Origin: Mycobacterium sp.
Lineage (GTDB): Bacteria; Actinomycetota; Actinomycetes; Mycobacteriales; Mycobacteriaceae
Length of the DNA stretch: 64,000 bases
Direction of reading: 5' to 3'
NCBI GenBank assembly: GCA_021732005.1
Contig: JAKFVT010000055.1
Location: 79,566-143,565 of the forward strand
Positions 6,839-56,586 of the stretch are shown piece by piece; positions within the stretch are counted from its first letter, which is position 1, and each line of letters opens with the position of its first letter. A model generated the notes under the pieces. That model made no database searches. It was given only the letters and a program-made list of their open reading frames with translations, and was not told the origin of the DNA. A program made the position numbers and the translations under genes.

Positions 6839-7834
6839 ATGTCGAAAGACCTGACCGACCTCGATCTCCTGCACGAGCTGGAACCGGTGGCGGAGAAGCT
6901 CATAAACCGCCACATGACGATGATGAAGGACTGGAACCCGCACGACTACATCCCGTGGTCGGACGGCAAGAACTACTACGCCCTCGGCGGCCAGGACTGG
7001 GATCCAGAGCAGTCGAAGCTCTCCGAAATCGCGCGCACTGCGATGGTGCAGAACCTTCTGACCGAGGACAACCTGCCCGCATATCACCGCGAGATCGCGA
7101 TGAACTTCTCGATGGACGGCCCCTGGGGCTACTGGGTCAATCGGTGGACCGCCGAGGAGAACCGGCACGGCATCTCGATCCGCGATTACCTGGTGGTCAC
7201 CCGCAACTGCGATCCCGTCGAGCTCGAAGAGCTGCGGATGGAGCAGATGACCCGTGGCTTCTCGCCAGGCCAGAACCAGCAGGGCGATCTGTTCGCCGAG
7301 AGCCTGTTCGACTCGGTCATGTACGTCAGCTTCCAGGAACTGGCGACCCGGGTGTCGCATCGCAACACCGGCAAGGCCTGCAACGACCCCGTCGCCGAGC
7401 AGCTGCTGGCCAGGATCTCCAACGACGAGAACCTGCACATGATCTTCTACCGCGACGTCAGCGAGGCCGGCTTCGACGTGGCCCCCAACCAGGCGATGAA
7501 GTCGCTGCACCGGGTGCTGCGCAACTTCAAGATGCCCGGCTACACCGTGCCGGACTTCCGGCGCAAGGCCGTCATCATCGCCATGGGCGGCGTGTACGAC
7601 CTGCGTATCCACCTCGACGATGTCGTGATGCCGGTGCTCAAGAAGTGGCGCATCTTCGAGCGCGACGACTTCACCGGCGAAGCGGCGGCAATGCGCGACG
7701 ACCTGGCGAACCTGATCACGGAAATCGAAGAGGCCGCCGACAAGTTCGAAGAGTCCAAGGCTCGCAAGCTCGAGCGGGACGCGCGTCTCGCCGAGAAGCG
7801 CAGCGCCAAGGCATTGGCAGGGGCGGCAACATAG
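6839..7834 (+). CDS. desA1: Acyl-[acyl-carrier-protein] desaturase DesA1
   Basis: A soluble di-iron desaturase that introduces a double bond into acyl-ACP. In mycobacteria DesA1 feeds mycolic acid synthesis. The 331-residue protein shows both ferritin-like iron-binding motifs, EENRH at 106-110 and DENLH at 196-200. It matches Rv0824c in my memory across most of its length. A GGAGGG site precedes ATG 6839. The reading frame ends in two consecutive TAG codons (7832-7837). The dihydrouridine synthase gene follows without a gap, so the two are probably cotranscribed. In M. tuberculosis an antisense RNA (ASdes) overlaps this gene; I cannot confirm an equivalent here. Confidence 0.96.
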   Translation: MSKDLTDLDLLHELEPVAEKLINRHMTMMKDWNPHDYIPWSDGKNYYALGGQDWDPEQSKLSEIARTAMVQNLLTEDNLPAYHREIAMNFSMDGPWGYWVNRWTAEENRHGISIRDYLVVTRNCDPVELEELRMEQMTRGFSPGQNQQGDLFAESLFDSVMYVSFQELATRVSHRNTGKACNDPVAEQLLARISNDENLHMIFYRDVSEAGFDVAPNQAMKSLHRVLRNFKMPGYTVPDFRRKAVIIAMGGVYDLRIHLDDVVMPVLKKWRIFERDDFTGEAAAMRDDLANLITEIEEAADKFEESKARKLERDARLAEKRSAKALAGAAT

Positions 7835-11998: not shown

Positions 11999-12032
11999 AA
12001 ATCCGGTATCGCCTTTGGGCGATACCGGATTT
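11999..12032. terminator. Bidirectional terminator between phoU and pstB
   Basis: A perfect 15-bp inverted repeat (AAATCCGGTATCGCC with its complement) has a TTTG loop. It is followed by T-rich sequence on the plus strand, and the run of A's on the other flank serves the minus strand. It sits between convergent phoU and pstB, and is among the clearest intrinsic terminators in the window. Confidence 0.9.
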
Positions 12033-13750: not shown

Positions 13751-14820
13751 CGGGCACCCCTTCCGGCCACCGCGGCGCGGGCCGCCGAGTTGACCACGAA
13801 CGTCAGGATGAACAGCACCAGGCCGGCGGCGATGTAGGCCCCCGCCTTGTACTGGTCATTGAATTCCGAAGCGGCCGAGGCGATCTTGCTGGCGAAGGTG
13901 TAGCCGGCGTCGAACAGCGACCAACCGAACGCCTTCTGCGTGCCGCGCAGGATGATCAACAGCGCGATCGTCTCACCCAGGGCGCGACCCAGGCCGAGCA
14001 TCGCGCCGCTGATGTAGCCGGACAGACCGAACGGCAACACCGTGGTCCTGACCACTTCCCAGCGGGTCGCGCCGAGCGCCAGCGCGGCCTCGATCTGTCC
14101 CCGCGGGGTCTGCACAAACACCTCGCGGCTGACTGCGGTGATGATCGGCAGGATCATCACCGCAAGCACGATCCCGGCGGTGAAAATGGTGCCGCCGCCT
14201 GCCACCGACGCGTTGCCGGTGTCGAACAAGAACAGCCAGCTCAGGTTGCCGTTGAGCCACATCGCGAGCGGCTTGATCACGGGCGCCAGCACATACAGGC
14301 CCCAGACGCCGTAGATGATCGACGGCACGGCGGCCAGCAGATCCACCATGTAGCCCAGCGGCCCGGACACCCGACGCGGGGCGTACTGCGTCAGGAAGAT
14401 CGCGATACCGAGCGCGACGGGCATCGCCAGGACCAGGGCGAACAGCGAGACGAACACCGTCACCTGCAGCAGGTCCAGGATGCCGAACTTCATGTGGGCG
14501 GTGTCGGTGGTGAGCCAGTTGCCGCCGTAGGTGAAGAAGTTGGCGTCGTTTCGGCCCAGCGCCGGTACCGCACGCCAGACGAGGAACAGGCCGATCGCGG
14601 CGATCAGCGCGATGACGAGAACGCCGGAACCTTCGGACAACCCGCGGAAGATCCGGTCGCCGAGGCGCACCTTGGCTGTTCCGGACGGGTTCGTCGGGAT
14701 CGAGGGCTTCTCGGGAAAGGGCTCAGCCACGACCTCGCCGGCTCCAGCCTCAGCTGGATTAGGCCCGGGCATGTCTTGGGTCACATCCACCCCATCGCTC
14801 ACTGATCTCTCCATCGTCAC
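13747..14820 (-). CDS. pstC: Phosphate ABC transporter permease PstC
   Basis: The partner permease of PstA. The 357-residue protein has a proline-rich cytoplasmic N-terminus of about 60 residues and then six or more membrane helices. The conserved [20 protein letters not shown] loop and [18 protein letters not shown] identify PstC. It lies 27 bp downstream of pstS and overlaps pstA by 4 bp. The start is ATG 14820; an in-frame ATG two codons later is an alternative. Confidence 0.96.
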
Positions 14821-48950: not shown

Positions 48951-49589
48951 ATGAGATCGCGGTTCCTGCCCTACGCCACCACCCCGGGCCGACTGCTGGC
49001 GCAGTTGGTCAGCGACCTGCTGGTCGCCTCGTGGATCACCGTGTGGGTCGTGGTCGGCCTGGCGGTGCACACCGCGGTCACGACGATCGCCGACGTCGGC
49101 CGTCAGGTCAAAGACGGTGCCACCGGGATCTCGGACAATCTGCATTCGGCCGGTGACAGCGCGCACAAGATCCCGTTGGTCGGCGACACCGTCGCCAAGC
49201 CGCTGCGGGCCGCCAGCGAGGCCGCCCTCGATGTCGCGGGCGCGGGCCACAACCTGGACACCACTGCCAGCTGGCTGGCGGTGGTGCTGGCGTTCGCGGT
49301 GGCGGCACCGCCGATTCTGGCCGTCGGTATGCCGTGGCTGTTTCTGCGGATCCGGTTCTTCCGCCGCAAGTGGACGGTCATCGCGCTGGCCCGCACGCCC
49401 GCCGGTGAACAGCTGCTGGCGCTGCGCGCCCTGGCCAACCGGCCGCTGCGCAAGCTCACCGAAGTGACCTTCGACCCGGTCGGCGCCTGGCGGCGCGAGG
49501 ACCCGTATGCGATCCGCGGCCTGGCCACCCTCGAACTGCGTTCGGCAGGTGTGGCCGCCCCGCGCTATTGGCGGAATCCGGCGCGCTGA
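48951..49589 (+). CDS. Membrane protein, Rv0779c-like
   Basis: A 212-residue protein with two hydrophobic segments (AQLVSDLLVASWITVWVVVG and WLAVVLAFAVAAPPILAVGM), probably both membrane-spanning. They enclose an extracytoplasmic loop of about 80 residues rich in alanine. The C-terminal half RFFRRKWTVIALARTP and LTEVTFDPVGAWRREDPYAIRGLA is cytoplasmic and basic. It is divergent from purC, as Rv0779c is. Function unknown. Its stop codon lies inside the first of two 36-bp direct repeats. Confidence 0.87.
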   Translation: MRSRFLPYATTPGRLLAQLVSDLLVASWITVWVVVGLAVHTAVTTIADVGRQVKDGATGISDNLHSAGDSAHKIPLVGDTVAKPLRAASEAALDVAGAGHNLDTTASWLAVVLAFAVAAPPILAVGMPWLFLRIRFFRRKWTVIALARTPAGEQLLALRALANRPLRKLTEVTFDPVGAWRREDPYAIRGLATLELRSAGVAAPRYWRNPAR

Positions 49590-49616
49590 CGAGCGCTGTG
49601 CGCACGTAACCGCGCC
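49581..49616 (+). repeat. 36-bp direct repeat, left copy
   Basis: Sequence GCGCGCTGACGAGCGCTGTG onward, ending in CGTAACCGCGCC. It matches 34 of 36 bases of the copy at 50515-50550. Its left end includes the last codons and stop of the membrane protein gene. Confidence 0.8.
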
Positions 49617-49662
49617 CGATTCGGATGGGAACCGGCGCGGGGCTGCCGGCGTCCGATCTGGT

Positions 49663-50523
49663 GTGCTTGAAGATCTTTTGCGCCGCCATGACGGTGTGAT
49701 CACGCTTGCGCAGGCCCAGCGCGCCGGCATGAGTGAGTTCGCCGTTCGCCGCCGCGTGCGGTCGGGGCAGTGGCGGCGCTGCGCGCTGGGCGTGTATTTC
49801 GCCGACGACCGACCGTTCACGCCGGCGGCCAGAATTCGCGCCGCGGTATGGAGTCGCGGACACCGCGCCACGGCGAGCGGGCTCGCCGCCGCGTGGTGGT
49901 TGGGGCTGACCGCGACAGGGCCTGACATCGTGGAGATCACCGTGCCGCGCAACAGCCACGGTCGCGCGACCCCGGGGACCCGGGTGCGGCGGCGGGATCT
50001 CGCCGAGGTCGACGTCGTCGAGCACCGGTCGCTGCGGGTCACGGCGCCCGCGCTGACCGTGATCGAAGCAGCCGTATCGCGCGGCGGTGGGCCGGCCATC
50101 ATGGACACCGCCCTGCAACGGCGCGTCGAACTGCCCGCCCTGGAACGCGCACACGCCCGTAACCGCGGCCGCAGCGGATCCACCGCGAGCCGGCGCCTGC
50201 TGGACGCTGCCGCCGGCGGCGCGCGCTCCGAGGCCGAACGCCTGATCATTCGACTGCTCAAGCAGGCGGGTATCACTGGCTGGCGGGCCAACTTCCCGGT
50301 CGGCAATTACGTTGTGGACGTTGCCTTTCCGGCTCAGCGTGTGGCCATCGAGATCGACGGCTGGGCGTTCCACAGCGATCAGGCCGCTTTCCAGAACGAC
50401 CGCACGCGGCAGAACCGGCTCGCCCTGCAGGGCTGGCAGGTGTTGCGGTTCACCTGGCTGGACCTGACGCAGTATCCGGATCGGGTGCTCGCTCAGGTGA
50501 GCGCCGCCATCTCGGCGCGCTGA
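49663..50523 (+). CDS. DUF559 (VSR-like) protein with AbiEi-like N-terminal domain
   Basis: A 286-residue protein. The N-terminus (DLLRRHDGVITLAQAQRAG, then SEFAVRRRVRSGQWRRCALGVYF) resembles the winged-helix, AbiEi-type antitoxin domain. The C-terminus (VGNYVVDVAFPAQRVAIEIDGWAFH, then RTRQNRLALQGWQVLRFTW) is DUF559, an endonuclease-like PD-(D/E)xK fold with aspartate and glutamate of EID. These proteins are common solitary genes in mycobacteria. GTG 49663 was chosen for the family-like start. It is bracketed by the 36-bp direct repeats, and may be a recently acquired or mobile gene. Confidence 0.85.
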   Translation: MLEDLLRRHDGVITLAQAQRAGMSEFAVRRRVRSGQWRRCALGVYFADDRPFTPAARIRAAVWSRGHRATASGLAAAWWLGLTATGPDIVEITVPRNSHGRATPGTRVRRRDLAEVDVVEHRSLRVTAPALTVIEAAVSRGGGPAIMDTALQRRVELPALERAHARNRGRSGSTASRRLLDAAAGGARSEAERLIIRLLKQAGITGWRANFPVGNYVVDVAFPAQRVAIEIDGWAFHSDQAAFQNDRTRQNRLALQGWQVLRFTWLDLTQYPDRVLAQVSAAISAR

Positions 50524-50560: not shown

Positions 50561-50588
50561 TAGTAATCAATCAAACGATTGATTACTA
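50561..50588 (+). promoter_or_regulatory. Palindromic operator upstream of the Rieske operon
   Basis: A perfect palindrome with 12-bp arms: TAGTAATCAATC-AAAC-GATTGATTACTA. AT-rich in a GC-rich genome and about 30 bp before the Rieske start. This is the size and symmetry of a TetR-family operator; the TetR gene at 55060-55713 in the same cluster is the likely binder. Confidence 0.75.
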
Positions 50589-50618
50589 TCGGCAGCAGAC
50601 CACGAGGGAGGTTCATCA

Positions 50619-51974
50619 ATGACGTCTACAGCCCTGCCCGGCGAATGGGTCGACCACGCACCGGGGCTCGACGACCTGGCGGGCAGCTTCAAGTCTCAGG
50701 TCTCCGCGGACCGCTACCGATCGCGGGAGTACGCCGAACGCGAGCGTGCGGCGATCTGGATGAAGACGTGGCAGATCGCCGGCCGGGTGGACGACCTTCC
50801 CAAAGTCGGCGACTGGCTGGAATACAAGATCTACGACCAGTCCTTCCTCGTCGTGCGCGGCAAGGACGAGCAACTGCGCGGTTTCGTCAACGCCTGCCGG
50901 CATCGCGGCAATGCCATCTGCCAGGGCCGCACCGGCAACGCCAAGCGCGGCTTCCTGTGCCAATACCACCTGTGGTCCTACGACCTCGACGGCCGGCTCA
51001 AGGGACTGCTGCGGGAACAGAACGCCGGCGGCATCGACAAGAGCGACAACTCGCTGATCACGGTTCCGGTGGACACCTTCGGTGGCTTCATCTTCATCAA
51101 CCCCGATCCCGGCGCACAGCCGCTTGCGGAGTGGATCGGTGAGGAGGCGATGGCGACTCTGCAGCCGTATCACCTCGAACTGATGTCGACGGTGATGAAT
51201 GTCCGAGAAGCCCTGGATTGCAACTGGAAGGTCGTGATGGACGCCTTCAACGAGGGCTATCACGTCAATGGAGTCCACCCACAACTGTTGGCAGTGCTCA
51301 ACATTCAGCCCGAGACCACCCGCTACAAGTTCTTCGAGAACCACACCATCGCGATGGCCCCGTTCGACGTCGTGGGGGCCACCCCCGAAAAACAGGTCGA
51401 GGGCACGCTGTCGCTGCCCGAGACCTTCCCGGGGACGGTCGCGGTGATCCCTCGATTCCAAGAACTCGTCAAGGAGTACACCGCGGACGACGGCTCCATC
51501 GACTTCCCCGACGGTGTCACGGCGCGCACGCTGCTGCAGAAGGCAACCCGTGCGCACCTCACCGAGATGGGCTTGGACGTCAGCGGTCTGACCGACGCCC
51601 AGATGAGCGACAACCACGGCTGGTTCCTCTTCCCCAACTTCATGATGACCATCAGGGCCGGCGAGTGCCACGTGATCTTGGCGAGGCCGCACCCCGATGG
51701 GGACCCCAACCGGTGCATCTGGCATGTCGCGAGCTACATGTATCTGCCACCGGAGATGGCGGCGGCGTTCACCGTGGACCTGACCGAGGTCGACGAACCA
51801 GGCAGTTACAAGTATTTCGAAGCGCTGCAACAGGATTACGAGCAGATGCAGCGTCAGCAGGCAGGGCTGCGCAACGAGAGCCTCGATCACCTGATGCTGG
51901 TGAACGAGGAGATCGTCGTCGCAAAGTTTCACGACACCATGGATCGATGGATGGCAGGAAAGGCCGCACAGTGA
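50619..51974 (+). CDS. Rieske non-haem iron oxygenase, alpha subunit
   Basis: A ring-hydroxylating dioxygenase or monooxygenase subunit. The 451 residues hold the [2Fe-2S] Rieske motif, Cys93-x-His95 and Cys114-x2-His117 (NACRHRGNAIC, FLCQYHLW). The catalytic domain has mononuclear iron ligands His215 and His220 in NEGYHVNGVHPQ. Downstream in the operon are two NTF2-like proteins, a ferredoxin and a GMC oxidoreductase, but no typical reductase, so the electron chain is unclear. It is preceded by the palindrome. Substrate unknown, likely an aromatic or polycyclic compound. Confidence 0.93.
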   Translation: MTSTALPGEWVDHAPGLDDLAGSFKSQVSADRYRSREYAERERAAIWMKTWQIAGRVDDLPKVGDWLEYKIYDQSFLVVRGKDEQLRGFVNACRHRGNAICQGRTGNAKRGFLCQYHLWSYDLDGRLKGLLREQNAGGIDKSDNSLITVPVDTFGGFIFINPDPGAQPLAEWIGEEAMATLQPYHLELMSTVMNVREALDCNWKVVMDAFNEGYHVNGVHPQLLAVLNIQPETTRYKFFENHTIAMAPFDVVGATPEKQVEGTLSLPETFPGTVAVIPRFQELVKEYTADDGSIDFPDGVTARTLLQKATRAHLTEMGLDVSGLTDAQMSDNHGWFLFPNFMMTIRAGECHVILARPHPDGDPNRCIWHVASYMYLPPEMAAAFTVDLTEVDEPGSYKYFEALQQDYEQMQRQQAGLRNESLDHLMLVNEEIVVAKFHDTMDRWMAGKAAQ

Positions 51975-52498
51975 ACCTCGAAGAACGCATCGCCCTACAC
52001 AATCGGATGGCCCGGGCCTACGGTGACGCCTATTTGCGCCAGGGTGTGCAAGACGGCGAAAAGTTCGTCGACGTCTGGAAATTCCACCCGGACTGCATGT
52101 ATGCCTCGCCCTACTTCACCGGCGACGAGGCGTTCAAACTCAGCGAGTTCCCGGAGGAATCCGCTCGTGCCTCGACCATGGAGGCCAAGGTCTACTCACT
52201 GCGGTTCCCGGACTGGAAGCCCGTCGATTTCAAGCACTGGCCGGCCGACAACGGCTTCGTGATGAAGACCCGCTGGCAGGGCACCAACAAGGATACCGGT
52301 GCCGTAATGGGCTTCTACTCTTACAGTTTCATCGACACCGACGACAACGGTGAAGTGGTGCGCTGGGAGACCCACGTCAACAGCGAGTACAGCGACTTCC
52401 TGGACGTCGCGATCGGTGTGCACGGGCCGTTCCACGGAACCCACGAATACACCGACGCCTTGGATCGCCGGCTGGCCGAGGAGGGATTGACCGTCTGA
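51971..52498 (+). CDS. NTF2-like protein, Rieske cluster (175 aa)
   Basis: A 175-residue protein that begins at GTG 51971, overlapping the Rieske stop by 4 bp. Opening LEERIALHNRMARAYGDAYL and later MKTRWQGTNKDTGAVMGFYSYSFIDT with VRWETHVNSEYSDFL give the cone-shaped NTF2-like pattern. It could be a non-catalytic beta subunit of the oxygenase or a separate isomerase. It overlaps the next gene by one base. Family not recognised beyond the fold. Confidence 0.8.
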   Translation: MNLEERIALHNRMARAYGDAYLRQGVQDGEKFVDVWKFHPDCMYASPYFTGDEAFKLSEFPEESARASTMEAKVYSLRFPDWKPVDFKHWPADNGFVMKTRWQGTNKDTGAVMGFYSYSFIDTDDNGEVVRWETHVNSEYSDFLDVAIGVHGPFHGTHEYTDALDRRLAEEGLTV

Positions 52499-52923
52499 TG
52501 GCGCTGTCGCAGACCGTGCTGGACTACAGCGCCCTGATGAAACGCTTGGTCGACGAGGCCAAGCAGCCGGGCTTCAGCACCGACAGCTGGGCCCCGTTGG
52601 CCGAGCTGATCGATACGCAGAACTTCGTGCGAGTGGGCAATTTCAAAGAGGTGATGAACTGGGGCGAGTACATCGCGTTCCTCACCAACTGGGCGACGTC
52701 GTCGGAGTGGGAGTCCGATTTCAAGCGGGTCACCGAGGCCGGCAACGTGGTGTTCCTCGAGCTCGAAGAGCGCAGCAGAATCGGCGAATTCAGCAACTCG
52801 GTCAACTCGGTGTCGGTCTACCAGTTCGACCAGAGCGGAAAGATCACCCGCATCGACGTATACCTCCAAATGGCACTGCCCGATCCGGATATGCTCGCCA
52901 GCTACGAAGGTGTCGAGATCTGA
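52498..52923 (+). CDS. NTF2-like protein, Rieske cluster (141 aa)
   Basis: A second NTF2-like protein, 141 residues, with YSALMKRLVDEAKQPGFSTD, VGNFKEVMNWGEYIAFLTNW and SVYQFDQSGKITRIDVYLQM. The last is the strand pattern seen in SnoaL-type and beta-subunit proteins. It is coupled by TGATG to the preceding gene. Having two such subunits next to one Rieske alpha is unusual. Role inferred only: either oxygenase beta-like or downstream isomerase. Confidence 0.78.
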   Translation: MALSQTVLDYSALMKRLVDEAKQPGFSTDSWAPLAELIDTQNFVRVGNFKEVMNWGEYIAFLTNWATSSEWESDFKRVTEAGNVVFLELEERSRIGEFSNSVNSVSVYQFDQSGKITRIDVYLQMALPDPDMLASYEGVEI

Positions 52924-52937
52924 CGGATAGGGAACCG

Positions 52938-53129
52938 ATGAAGGCTTCGGTGGATCCCGACCGCTGCGCCGGGCACGGCGACTGCGTGTCGACATGCCCG
53001 GACGTGTTCGCCTGGACCGCCGACGGCTACGCCGAAGTGGTGCTCGACGAGATACCGGACCAGTACCACGATCTCGTCGCCAAAGCCGTGCAGGACTGCC
53101 CCGAACACGCGATCAGCGCGCAAGGCTAG
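52938..53129 (+). CDS. Ferredoxin, [3Fe-4S] or [4Fe-4S] type
   Basis: A 63-residue electron carrier. Cysteines C10, C16, C20 and C55 are in CAGHGDCVSTCPDVF and DCPEHAI. Typical mycobacterial P450-linked ferredoxins have three cysteines here, with alanine where this one has C20, so a [4Fe-4S] cluster is possible. Small size and position suggest it feeds electrons to the Rieske enzyme. ATG 52938 is 14 bp after the NTF2-like gene, and the GMC gene overlaps its stop. Confidence 0.9.
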   Translation: MKASVDPDRCAGHGDCVSTCPDVFAWTADGYAEVVLDEIPDQYHDLVAKAVQDCPEHAISAQG

Positions 53130-54694
53130 TGGCCGCATTCGACTTCGTCGTCATCGGCGCAGGGTCGGCGGGCTGTGCGGTCGCCGCGCGCCTGGCCGAA
53201 GGAAGTGCACGTGTCCTGCTGCTGGAGGCCGGCGGTTCGGACCGGCGCCTGACGGTGCGGGCGCCGCTGGCCTTCGCCGCGCAGATGGGCGGCCCGACCG
53301 ACTGGGACTACCGCACGGCACCCGAACCGGCGTGCGACGGCCGGGTCATCCCGCAGCCCCGGGGTCGCGTGCTCGGCGGGACCAGCTCGATGAACGCGAT
53401 GGTGTGGATCCGCGGCACCCGACTCGACTACGACGGCTGGGACCTGCCCGGTTGGGGGTGGTCCGATGTCGAGCCGGTGTTCCGCCGCATCGAGTCGCAC
53501 TATCTGGGCGGCCCGGCGCACGGGACCGCCGGCCCGATCCGAATCACCCGGCTGGCGGAGCCCGACGTGACCTCCGTCCGATGGGTGCACGCCGCCCGCG
53601 CCGCCGGTGTCAGCGACAACGAGGACATCGGCGGACCTGATCTCGACGGGTCGTCCATTGCTCCGGTGACGGTCTGGAAGGGGCAGCGCTGGAACACCGC
53701 TCGGGCGTATCTGCCTGCGGCGCGGCGTCGTTCGAATTTCAGTGTCGTGACCGGGGCGCTGGTGCACCGGGTGGTGATCCGCGACGGACGCGCGGTGGCC
53801 GTGGAGTACGAACGCAAGGGGCGGCGGCATATCGTCTCCGCCGGCCGCGAGATCGTCCTGTCGGCCGGGGCGTACGGAACGCCGCAGCTGCTGCAGCTCT
53901 CCGGCGTCGGCGCGGCCGACCACCTCAGCGCGGCGGGAATCACGCCGGTCATCGAAAGCCCCAGGGTGGGAACCAACCTCACCGATCATCCGGCTGCCGC
54001 GATGAGTTGGGACGTACACCCCGGCTTCATCGGCCTGTCGGATGCTCAGAAGCCACAGTGGTTGCTGCGGTGGTTGTTTCGGCGCACCGGAAAACTCACC
54101 AGCAATGCGATGGAGGCGATCGCGCAGGTCCGGTCCCTCCCCGACCTGCCTGCCCCGGATTTCCAGCTGATTCACTCCCCCAGCTACGTCAACCTGATCG
54201 CGATGGAGCAAGAGCTTCGCCGCGCCTCGTCGGTGCTGCAGTCCTACTGGACCCCGGAAAGCCGCGGCACCGTGATGGCGCAGTCCGCGGATCCACATGT
54301 GCCACCGGAGATTCGGCTCAACACCTTGGCCCACCCGGACGACGTGCAGGCGTTCATCCGTATCGTGCGACGCACCCGGGAGATCGTCGGCACCGAGCCG
54401 TTCGCCTCGGTGATCACGACCGAACTGCACCCCGGCCCGGACACCGTCACCGACGCCCAGATCGAGGCGTGGCTGCGTAGTTCGATCGCCACCACCGGAC
54501 ACCCCGCCTGCTCGGCGGCGATGGGCACCGACGCCGGCAGCGTACTGGACGAGAACCTGAAAGTGCGTGGCGTCACCGGCCTGCGGGTGGCTGACGCGTC
54601 GGTGTTCCCCCGCATCCCGCGGGCCAACACCAACGCCCCGGCGATCCTGGTCGGTGAGCGGTGCGCCGACTTCATCAAGGCGGCGGACCGGTGA
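53129..54694 (+). CDS. GMC family FAD-dependent oxidoreductase
   Basis: A 521-residue flavoprotein alcohol or choline dehydrogenase type. The FAD motif VVIGAGSAGCAVAARLAEG is at the N-terminus. PRGRVLGGTSSMNAMVWIRG and NTARAYLPAARRRSNF follow, then TTGHPACSAAMGTDAGSVLD (catalytic histidine) and NTNAPAILVGERCADFI. Start GTG 53129 overlaps the ferredoxin stop. It may oxidise an alcohol from the Rieske pathway. It overlaps the amidohydrolase remnant by 4 bp. Confidence 0.92.
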   Translation: MAAFDFVVIGAGSAGCAVAARLAEGSARVLLLEAGGSDRRLTVRAPLAFAAQMGGPTDWDYRTAPEPACDGRVIPQPRGRVLGGTSSMNAMVWIRGTRLDYDGWDLPGWGWSDVEPVFRRIESHYLGGPAHGTAGPIRITRLAEPDVTSVRWVHAARAAGVSDNEDIGGPDLDGSSIAPVTVWKGQRWNTARAYLPAARRRSNFSVVTGALVHRVVIRDGRAVAVEYERKGRRHIVSAGREIVLSAGAYGTPQLLQLSGVGAADHLSAAGITPVIESPRVGTNLTDHPAAAMSWDVHPGFIGLSDAQKPQWLLRWLFRRTGKLTSNAMEAIAQVRSLPDLPAPDFQLIHSPSYVNLIAMEQELRRASSVLQSYWTPESRGTVMAQSADPHVPPEIRLNTLAHPDDVQAFIRIVRRTREIVGTEPFASVITTELHPGPDTVTDAQIEAWLRSSIATTGHPACSAAMGTDAGSVLDENLKVRGVTGLRVADASVFPRIPRANTNAPAILVGERCADFIKAADR

Positions 54695-55072
54695 CCGTCT
54701 TCGATGCGCATTTCCACATCGTCGATCCCCGGTTTCCGCTGTTGCCCATCCTGACCGGCCTGCCCCAGATCAGCATCGACCACCCGGCCATGTCGGACGA
54801 CACAGGCGGAGCGCTGCTGCGGCTGGTGGAGTCCGGCGCCGTGGTGAAGGCCACCGGCTTGGGCCGGATCAGCGTCACCGACCCCGACGCCCTGATGCGC
54901 GACATCGTGACCGCGAATCCCGCCGCACCGATCTTCGGCAGTGACCTGCCCTCTACCCCGGGCGGCAATTCCGTTCCAGGACAGCGATATCGAGCGGCTC
55001 GCGGATGCCGTCGGCGCCGACCACGTCGATGCGGTGCTGGCGACGAACGCGCGGAACTTCTACCGGCTCTGA
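54691..55072 (+). pseudogene. Decayed amidohydrolase (metal-dependent hydrolase)
   Basis: A remnant of a TIM-barrel amidohydrolase. The first 19 residues (TVFDAHFHIVDPRFPLLP) match the metal-binding start. The sequence then jumps to the C-terminal half (ISIDHPAMSDDTGG, KATGLGRISVTDP, PIFGSDLPST), about 140 residues missing in frame. After PST a one-base change at the CCCC run shifts the frame; the other frame continues IPFQDSDIERLADAVG and ends ATNARNFYRL. Both lesions suggest loss of function. It begins at GTG overlapping the GMC stop. Confidence 0.8.
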
Positions 55073-55713
55073 CCGAAGAGCTGGCCCCGCAGCAGCTGTT
55101 TGAGCGCGGCCACCGTCGCGTGGTACTCCTCTGGCGGCGGTGTGCTGGCGGCGTATTCGTTCAGGCCCCGGAAGATCATGTACACCGCGTTGGCCGCGCT
55201 CTCCACGTCGACCCCGCGGCCCAACACCTTCTCGCGGGCGCCCTGGGAGAGGATGTCGCGGATCAGGTTGCGTAGCGCGACGAATCGGGTGTCGCTGTTC
55301 TCGGCGAGGTGCAGGTGCTGCGGGCTCTCGGCGCGGATGGCCCGGTCGAAGGCGACGGCGAGCGGGTAGTCCTGCATCACCCGCACGCTTTCGTCCAGCA
55401 CCGCCATCAGTTTGTCCAGGGTGGCGGCGTTGTCTTCGGCGGCCTGCTCCAGCCGGGGTACGGCGATGGTCGCGACCTCGTCGAAGGTGGCCTTGACGAG
55501 TTCAGCCTTGTTCGGAAAGTAGTGATAGAGACTGCCGCTGGTCATATTCGCCTCGCGGGCGATCTCGCGGATCGTCGTCCGCGAGTAGCCGACGGCCGCG
55601 ACGCAGCGCATGGTCGCCTCGAGAATGCGCCGCCTCGTCTCCTCGCTGTTGGCGCCCACCGGCCGGCCGAGGAGCGAGGAAGCGGCCGACTCTGCACCTT
55701 TGGGTTTCGCCAT
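55060..55713 (-). CDS. TetR family regulator of the Rieske cluster
   Basis: A 217-residue TetR protein with DNA-binding domain at about 20-70 (RRRILEATMRCVAAVGYSRT, REIAREANMTSGSLYHYFPN). A ligand domain resembling TetR_C proteins of the KstR or FadR type follows. ATG 55713 begins MAKPKGAESAASSLL. It is divergent from a mycofactocin-coupled SDR and convergent, with a 13 bp overlap, with the amidohydrolase remnant. It is a candidate binder of the palindrome at 50561-50588. Confidence 0.9.
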   Translation of the reverse strand: MAKPKGAESAASSLLGRPVGANSEETRRRILEATMRCVAAVGYSRTTIREIAREANMTSGSLYHYFPNKAELVKATFDEVATIAVPRLEQAAEDNAATLDKLMAVLDESVRVMQDYPLAVAFDRAIRAESPQHLHLAENSDTRFVALRNLIRDILSQGAREKVLGRGVDVESAANAVYMIFRGLNEYAASTPPPEEYHATVAALKQLLRGQLFGQSR

Positions 55714-55751
55714 CGCTTTCAGAAGCTTCTCACAGTCGCGAGCCGATCGGT

Positions 55752-55757
55752 TAGAGT
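55752..55757 (+). promoter_or_regulatory. -10 element for leaderless mycofactocin SDR
   Basis: TAGAGT ends 7 bases before GTG 55765. It lies within the 51 bp between the divergent TetR and SDR genes. Confidence 0.55.
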
Positions 55758-55764
55758 CCGCGTC

Positions 55765-56586
55765 GTGGCAGACCTCATCGACACCGTCGCAGTAGTCACC
55801 GGCGCGGCCCGCGGCCAGGGCCGCAGTCATGCCGTCGCACTGGCCGCCGAGGGCGCCGACATCATCGCGATCGACCGCTGCGCCGACATCGACTCGATCC
55901 CGTACCCACTGGCCACCAAGGACGATCTCGACGAGACCGTCCGCCTCGTCGAGGCGCAGGGCCGCCGCATCGTTCCGGTCGTCGCCGATGTGCGCGACCT
56001 CGACGCCATGGCGGCCGGGGTACGCAGCGGTGTGGACGCGCTCGGGGAGATCGACATCGTGGTGGCCAACGCCGGGGTGGTGGCGATCGGTCTCAAGGAT
56101 CCGCTCGACACCGAGGTGTACCGCGACATTGTCGAGACCAACCTCAACGGGGTGTGGCACACCATCGTTGCCACCGTGCCCTCGATCATCCGCAAGGGCC
56201 GCGGCGGCTCGATCATCTTGACGAGTTCGGCGCAGGGCCTGGTCGGCAAGGGCGGCGACGGCAGCGCGGCGATGTTCGCCTATGCGGCGGCCAAGCACGG
56301 TGTCGTCGGACTGATGCGCTCCGCGGCCAACGCCTATGCCCAGCACAGCATCCGCGTGAACACGGTGCATCCCAGCGGCGTCGGCACCCCGATGATCCTC
56401 AACGACCACACACTCAAGACGTTCCAGGAGAACCCCAACGGTGCCGCGCTGTCGGCCAATCTGCTGCCGGTCCCGTTCGTCGAGGCCGAGGACGTCACCA
56501 ACGTGGTGGTCTTCCTGGCCGGCCCCAAGGCCCGCTACATCACCGGCGTCGCGCTACCGGTCGATGCCGGTCACGCGGTGATGTGA
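55765..56586 (+). CDS. Mycofactocin-coupled SDR family oxidoreductase
   Basis: A 273-residue dehydrogenase with the nucleotide motif VTGAARGQGRSHAVALAAEG. An insertion CADIDSIPYPLATKDDLDETVRLVEAQ marks enzymes whose bound NAD is recycled by mycofactocin. Catalytic residues are in LTSSAQGLVG and YAAAKHGVVG (YxxxK). It probably oxidises an alcohol substrate linked to the neighbouring Rieske and GMC steps. GTG 55765 is the leaderless start. Its end overlaps the convergent transporter gene by 33 bp. Confidence 0.93.
   Translation: MADLIDTVAVVTGAARGQGRSHAVALAAEGADIIAIDRCADIDSIPYPLATKDDLDETVRLVEAQGRRIVPVVADVRDLDAMAAGVRSGVDALGEIDIVVANAGVVAIGLKDPLDTEVYRDIVETNLNGVWHTIVATVPSIIRKGRGGSIILTSSAQGLVGKGGDGSAAMFAYAAAKHGVVGLMRSAANAYAQHSIRVNTVHPSGVGTPMILNDHTLKTFQENPNGAALSANLLPVPFVEAEDVTNVVVFLAGPKARYITGVALPVDAGHAVM

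Follow-up and report, generated by a model that had tools for sequence, protein, structure and literature searches.

A predicted TetR-family operator before a Rieske oxygenase operon in Mycobacterium sp.

What recognises the A+T-rich palindrome that stands before a Rieske oxygenase operon in Mycobacterium sp., and is the TetR-family protein encoded at the far end of that operon its reader? Here we follow the palindrome through the window, by which we mean the whole 64,000-nt stretch of DNA that was analysed (GCA_021732005.1, contig JAKFVT010000055.1, positions 79,566-143,565 of the forward strand), and through a comparison of about 380 genomes, 298 of which form the genus set.

The palindrome and its gene neighbourhood

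The palindrome TAGTAATCAATCAAACGATTGATTACTA occupies positions 50561-50588 and consists of two perfect 12-bp arms around an AAAC loop (TAGTAATCAATC-AAAC-GATTGATTACTA). Sequence, coordinates, arms and loop agree with the original prediction, and so does its A+T richness in a G+C-rich context (20/28 bases, 71%, in a window of 67.3% G+C). The further claim that it is the longest perfect dyad of its kind in the window did not hold, as it is exceeded at 11999-12032 (15-bp perfect arms, 4-nt loop, flanked by T/A runs) and at 14134-14164 (13-bp arms, 5-nt loop). The former is a strong intrinsic terminator candidate by terminator scoring, and thus a different kind of element. When 60 first-order Markov copies of the window were searched for dyads with arms of at least 12 bp and loops of 3-8 nt, the mean was 0.12 (7/60 copies had one), and none with at least 65% A+T occurred in the 60 copies. 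What sets the palindrome above chance is its conservation before orthologous genes, not its arm length, which by itself is only mildly unusual.

A conserved 20-bp core, AATCAATCAAACGATTGATT, lies at 50565-50584. When 24 sites were tallied column by column in both reading directions, the predicted operator AATCAATCRN-NYGATTGATT emerged, in which A-10, A-5 and C-3 are invariant. The dyad (20-28 bp) is 31-58 bp upstream of the Rieske start codon, with about 30 bp between its end and the gene, and its length falls within the range of about 15-30 bp for palindromic sites at target promoters. A ribosome-binding site, GAGGGAGG, can be read from the sequence at 50604-50611 on the plus strand.

The genes that follow are all on the plus strand as far as the TetR gene. 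The first encodes a Rieske oxygenase alpha subunit of 451 aa (50619-51974; Pfam Rieske 2.2e-13, Ring_hydroxyl_A 1.9e-24), whose PDB relatives are phthalate dioxygenase and carnitine monooxygenase. The second (51971-52498) has no Pfam hit; its predicted fold (pLDDT 85.5) matches SnoaL-like proteins with a TM of about 0.5, and the product is a small protein of SnoaL/NTF2-like fold, a possible oxygenase partner. Another small protein (52498-52923) has a weak SnoaL_2 match at E=0.04, below the cut-off. A ferredoxin (52938-53129; Fer4_15 3.6e-13) and a GMC-family FAD oxidoreductase (53129-54694; GMC_oxred_N/C) come next. The remnant at 54691-55072, named amidohydrolase-like by inspection and without a hit in a Pfam search, carries an internal deletion and a frameshift, while the gene is open at about 250 aa in G004, G018, G285 and L102.

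The TetR-family gene (55060-55713, minus strand; TetR_N 5.6e-18) faces the operon and lies about 4.5 kb downstream of the palindrome. Its product has the N-terminal TetR helix-turn-helix (PF00440, 64.9 bits against a cut-off of 24). Across a 51-bp gap (55714-55764) it diverges from a plus-strand gene for a mycofactocin-coupled short-chain dehydrogenase, or SDR (55765-56586; TIGR03971, 350 bits against a cut-off of 300). On the other side, just upstream of the palindrome, is a DUF559/AbiEi-like gene (49588-50523), which is present in some relatives only and therefore lies outside the proposed switch.

A consensus scan of the window for the promoter found no full sigma-70 site and no clear -35. 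A candidate -10 hexamer, TACTAT, which fits TAnnnT, overlaps the right end of the palindrome (50584-50589, plus strand). In the relatives G004, G294, G024, G177 and L103, TTGACA is followed after 17 bp by CAGAGT or CACAGT, immediately adjoining the left end of the site. With the promoter abutting the left end in relatives and the candidate -10 at the right end here, the window's sublineage has probably rebuilt its promoter and kept the predicted operator in place.

Pairing of the site with the TetR gene

Among the 298 genus genomes, the site is present before all Rieske orthologues of at least 85% identity. These and TetR orthologues of at least 80% identity co-occur in the same genomes, with the exception of G137. 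In that genome the first two operon genes, starting with the Rieske gene, and most of the third have been lost, and the palindrome is retained in front of the ferredoxin-GMC operon that is left. In G004 the Rieske gene is split by a frameshift (L033, 3007-4358), and operator, TetR gene and the rest of the operon are retained.

The core was found at no more than 2 mismatches in 39/298 genus genomes: in all 15 genomes with a TetR at least 80% identical, compared with 24/283 others (Fisher 4e-15, a value inflated by relatedness). Scored simply against TetR presence, the palindrome occurred in 27/77 versus 12/221 genomes (p=9e-10, relatedness ignored). A control motif made by reading the palindrome backward matched in 29 genomes and showed no TetR association (8/77 versus 21/221, p=0.49, relatedness again ignored). 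As 29 control matches stand against 39, raw match counts across the genus mean little and were dropped as evidence; the analysis relied on where the site lies and on its pairing with the TetR. The motif is not exclusive, as 12 genus genomes that lack a TetR at E<=1e-50 also have near-matches (up to 2 mismatches), several of these preceding an ArsR-like gene. A look-alike palindrome, TAATCAACCAAWTGATTGATCA, stands around 1501-1522 in L006, L014 and L016, directly after TTGACA-type promoters of the ArsR-like gene; found before that gene in about seven genomes, it makes up a separate putative operator family.

For a comparison beyond the genus, the Rieske alignment was scanned against 84,980 species genomes, which gave 80 Rieske-gene loci from several genera. 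The site was sought in the 300 bp upstream of each Rieske gene, and a TetR at least 50% identical to that of 55060-55713 was sought nearby. All 18 loci with such a TetR nearby had a site with 0-5 mismatches, whereas 60 of the 62 loci without it showed at least 6 mismatches; site and regulator are thus inherited together (18/18 versus 2/62 loci). Both exceptions belong to genomes with the TetR on another contig. One (L096) corresponds to the operon of G168, a genome in which the TetR orthologue is found elsewhere; the other (L137) is from Nocardia vaccinii, where a 62% identical TetR has its own 1-mismatch site close by. Palindromes with shuffled half-sites reached 4 mismatches or fewer in only 2/540 trials.

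The site persists at considerable distance. In Nocardia nova the arms around the same core are perfect over 16 bp and the TetR is 62% identical, and the site also accompanies TetR proteins of Actinomadura (60-61% identical) and Frankia (55-62% identical), the best upstream site at two Frankia-type loci having 5 mismatches. In G013, G026 and G059, the genes for distant TetR homologues (50-55%) carry similar sites immediately upstream of their start. An uncultured Mycobacterium (L103) has at 6931-6976, ahead of its Rieske gene, a perfect 46-bp palindrome, GTGGTCGCACAGTAATCAATCAATCGATTGATTACTGTGCGACCAC, with the same core at its centre. In many genomes (L060-L090), two TetR homologues (46-53% identical) are encoded divergently, and up to 4 kb from them stand one or two sites of the type GATACGATCAAGCGATTGATTA and CATACTATCAACCGATTGATTA, frequently spaced by 57-58 bp; these represent a related putative operator in which one half is altered.

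At E<=1e-50 the window's own genome encodes a single TetR of this kind, and it contains a single strong site. No second copy of the palindrome was found in the window at up to 3 mismatches, and the 18-base core TAATCAATC-N4-GATTGATTA is single-copy in the 5.76-Mb genome at the same threshold. A degenerate pattern turned up two more weak places; one is within a coding stretch, and the other (TATTGATCGATCGATCAAAT; L175, 1501-1520; C33:17794-17813 of the genome) precedes another mycofactocin-type SDR gene that is accompanied by a different TetR. No wider regulon is claimed.

A predicted repressor switch and its alternatives

The near-perfect co-occurrence across genomes, genera and gene orders supports the original proposal that the TetR of 55060-55713 controls the Rieske operon through the palindrome. 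We consider it very probable that the palindrome is the operator at which this TetR represses the Rieske/NTF2-like/ferredoxin/GMC operon and from which a small molecule releases it. One TetR dimer, or two, would sit on AATCAATCRN-NYGATTGATT, overlapping the operon's promoter and keeping RNA polymerase off. The releasing molecule would probably be a compound of the oxygenase pathway, either a substrate or an intermediate. We infer binding, repression, promoter position and inducer from the observed site, its conservation and its pairing with the TetR clade; repression is preferred to activation because of the position of the site and the habit of the TetR family. In the window's lineage the TetR gene and the divergent mycofactocin-type SDR gene, which lack the site, would probably be outside the switch. 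The type of switch proposed is ordinary, and the comparative support is unusually clear. A TetR clade in Mycobacterium, Nocardia, Actinomadura and Frankia gains a precise predicted operator and target operon, which allow direct tests of binding and of the inducer, hence of the oxygenase substrate.

It is improbable that the palindrome is bound by some other regulator of the genome, with the neighbouring TetR a bystander, even though the TetR gene is not adjacent to the site and similar palindromes precede ArsR-like genes elsewhere in the genus. Presence of the site tracks the TetR clade over genera and gene orders, and distant homologues have similar sites at their own start, which is hard to explain unless the TetR clade binds.

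Still less probable is a hairpin in the leader RNA, acting as an attenuator or stability element. RNA folding is predicted to be good (z = -4.2); however, a U-run and a terminator score are both absent, and a terminator or attenuator was rejected on these grounds. Changes among relatives are often one-sided, as in GATTGATT to GATCGATT, or AATTAATC on a single arm, so that the letters are kept and not the pairing. Moreover, the site touches the -10 in relatives and would be at best partly transcribed.

A chance palindrome or a mobile repeat is the least credible of all. Roughly one simulated window in nine contains 12-bp arms, but conservation of the site in a constant position across all orthologous operons already contradicts this reading, and a repeat family was rejected because the genome holds a single copy.

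A literature search by operator sequence returned nothing relevant. Closest in logic, on its published description, is the M. tuberculosis pair Rv3160c/Rv3161c, in which a TetR-type repressor likewise meets a palindrome in a Rieske oxygenase promoter. Gel shifts showed Rv3160c binding to the promoter of rv3161c, the Rieske gene, for which inverted repeats of 12 bp and 8 bp and the -10 region are all needed (PMC7810876). Unlike in the window, TetR and oxygenase share one operon there, and a second, inner repeat is required. Like the window's TetR as proposed here, BkaR is a mycobacterial TetR whose dimer has a conserved palindromic motif, found by genome comparison, and a small regulon; its motif GTTA(N)T(N4)A(N)TAAC differs, and it is autoregulatory (PMC3920632). 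MftR, the mycobacterial TetR repressor of the mycofactocin cluster, shares a palindromic operator (27 bp, T-N2-GGCA-N5-TGCC-N2-A; PMC8728441) and a related redox theme, but the two operators are unrelated and the window's TetR scores 29.7 bits against the MftR cut-off of 224.9. Among the NCBIfam equivalogs for KstR, BetI, MftR, FadR and ScbR it passed no curated cut-off, the best score being 83.4 bits for ScbR_bind_reg (cut-off 150).

Self-control of the TetR gene

Autoregulation is common among TetR-family pairs and is not a requirement. The original prediction saw no similar site at the TetR gene's own promoter, and a sequence search of the gap at 55714-55764 bears this out. The suggestion that the regulator may not be self-controlled fits the window's clade, in which the gap lacks the site, but does not extend to four close outgroups (G285, G296, G269 and bin79). 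In these the TetR/SDR gap is longer and carries AATCAATCA..CGATCGATT-like sites, which adjoin the -10-like TTAGRGT of the SDR gene. The gap is 51 bp without operator in the window and in ten other genus genomes, and L102 and L103 have the same short TetR leader; in this clade of 13, about 39 bp, operator included, are missing.

In the TetR tree the 13 site-less members are nested within the group as a clade with support of 99/93, and the four site-bearing loci branch outside it, a topology that favours one loss within the clade. Relatives from Nocardia, Actinomadura and Frankia have no operator at their TetR. The operator may have been gained at the root of the mycobacterial clade and lost later, both being possible steps; a single loss is the simplest reading within that clade, and the lack of self-control in the window's species looks derived. 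We lean slightly towards one deletion of about 39 bp in the ancestor of the 13 having rewired the regulon, which would have freed TetR and SDR and left the Rieske operon repressed. If so, the relatives would offer natural before/after pairs for regulon rewiring, and the clade that lost its second operator would be a natural experiment on the contribution of autoregulation.

A TGAGAAGCTT/TGAGAAACT element lies just before the TetR start in the window (55722-55740) and in the TetR leaders of L046-L048, L141 and L142, thus in several genera, and is probably part of the TetR gene's own promoter.
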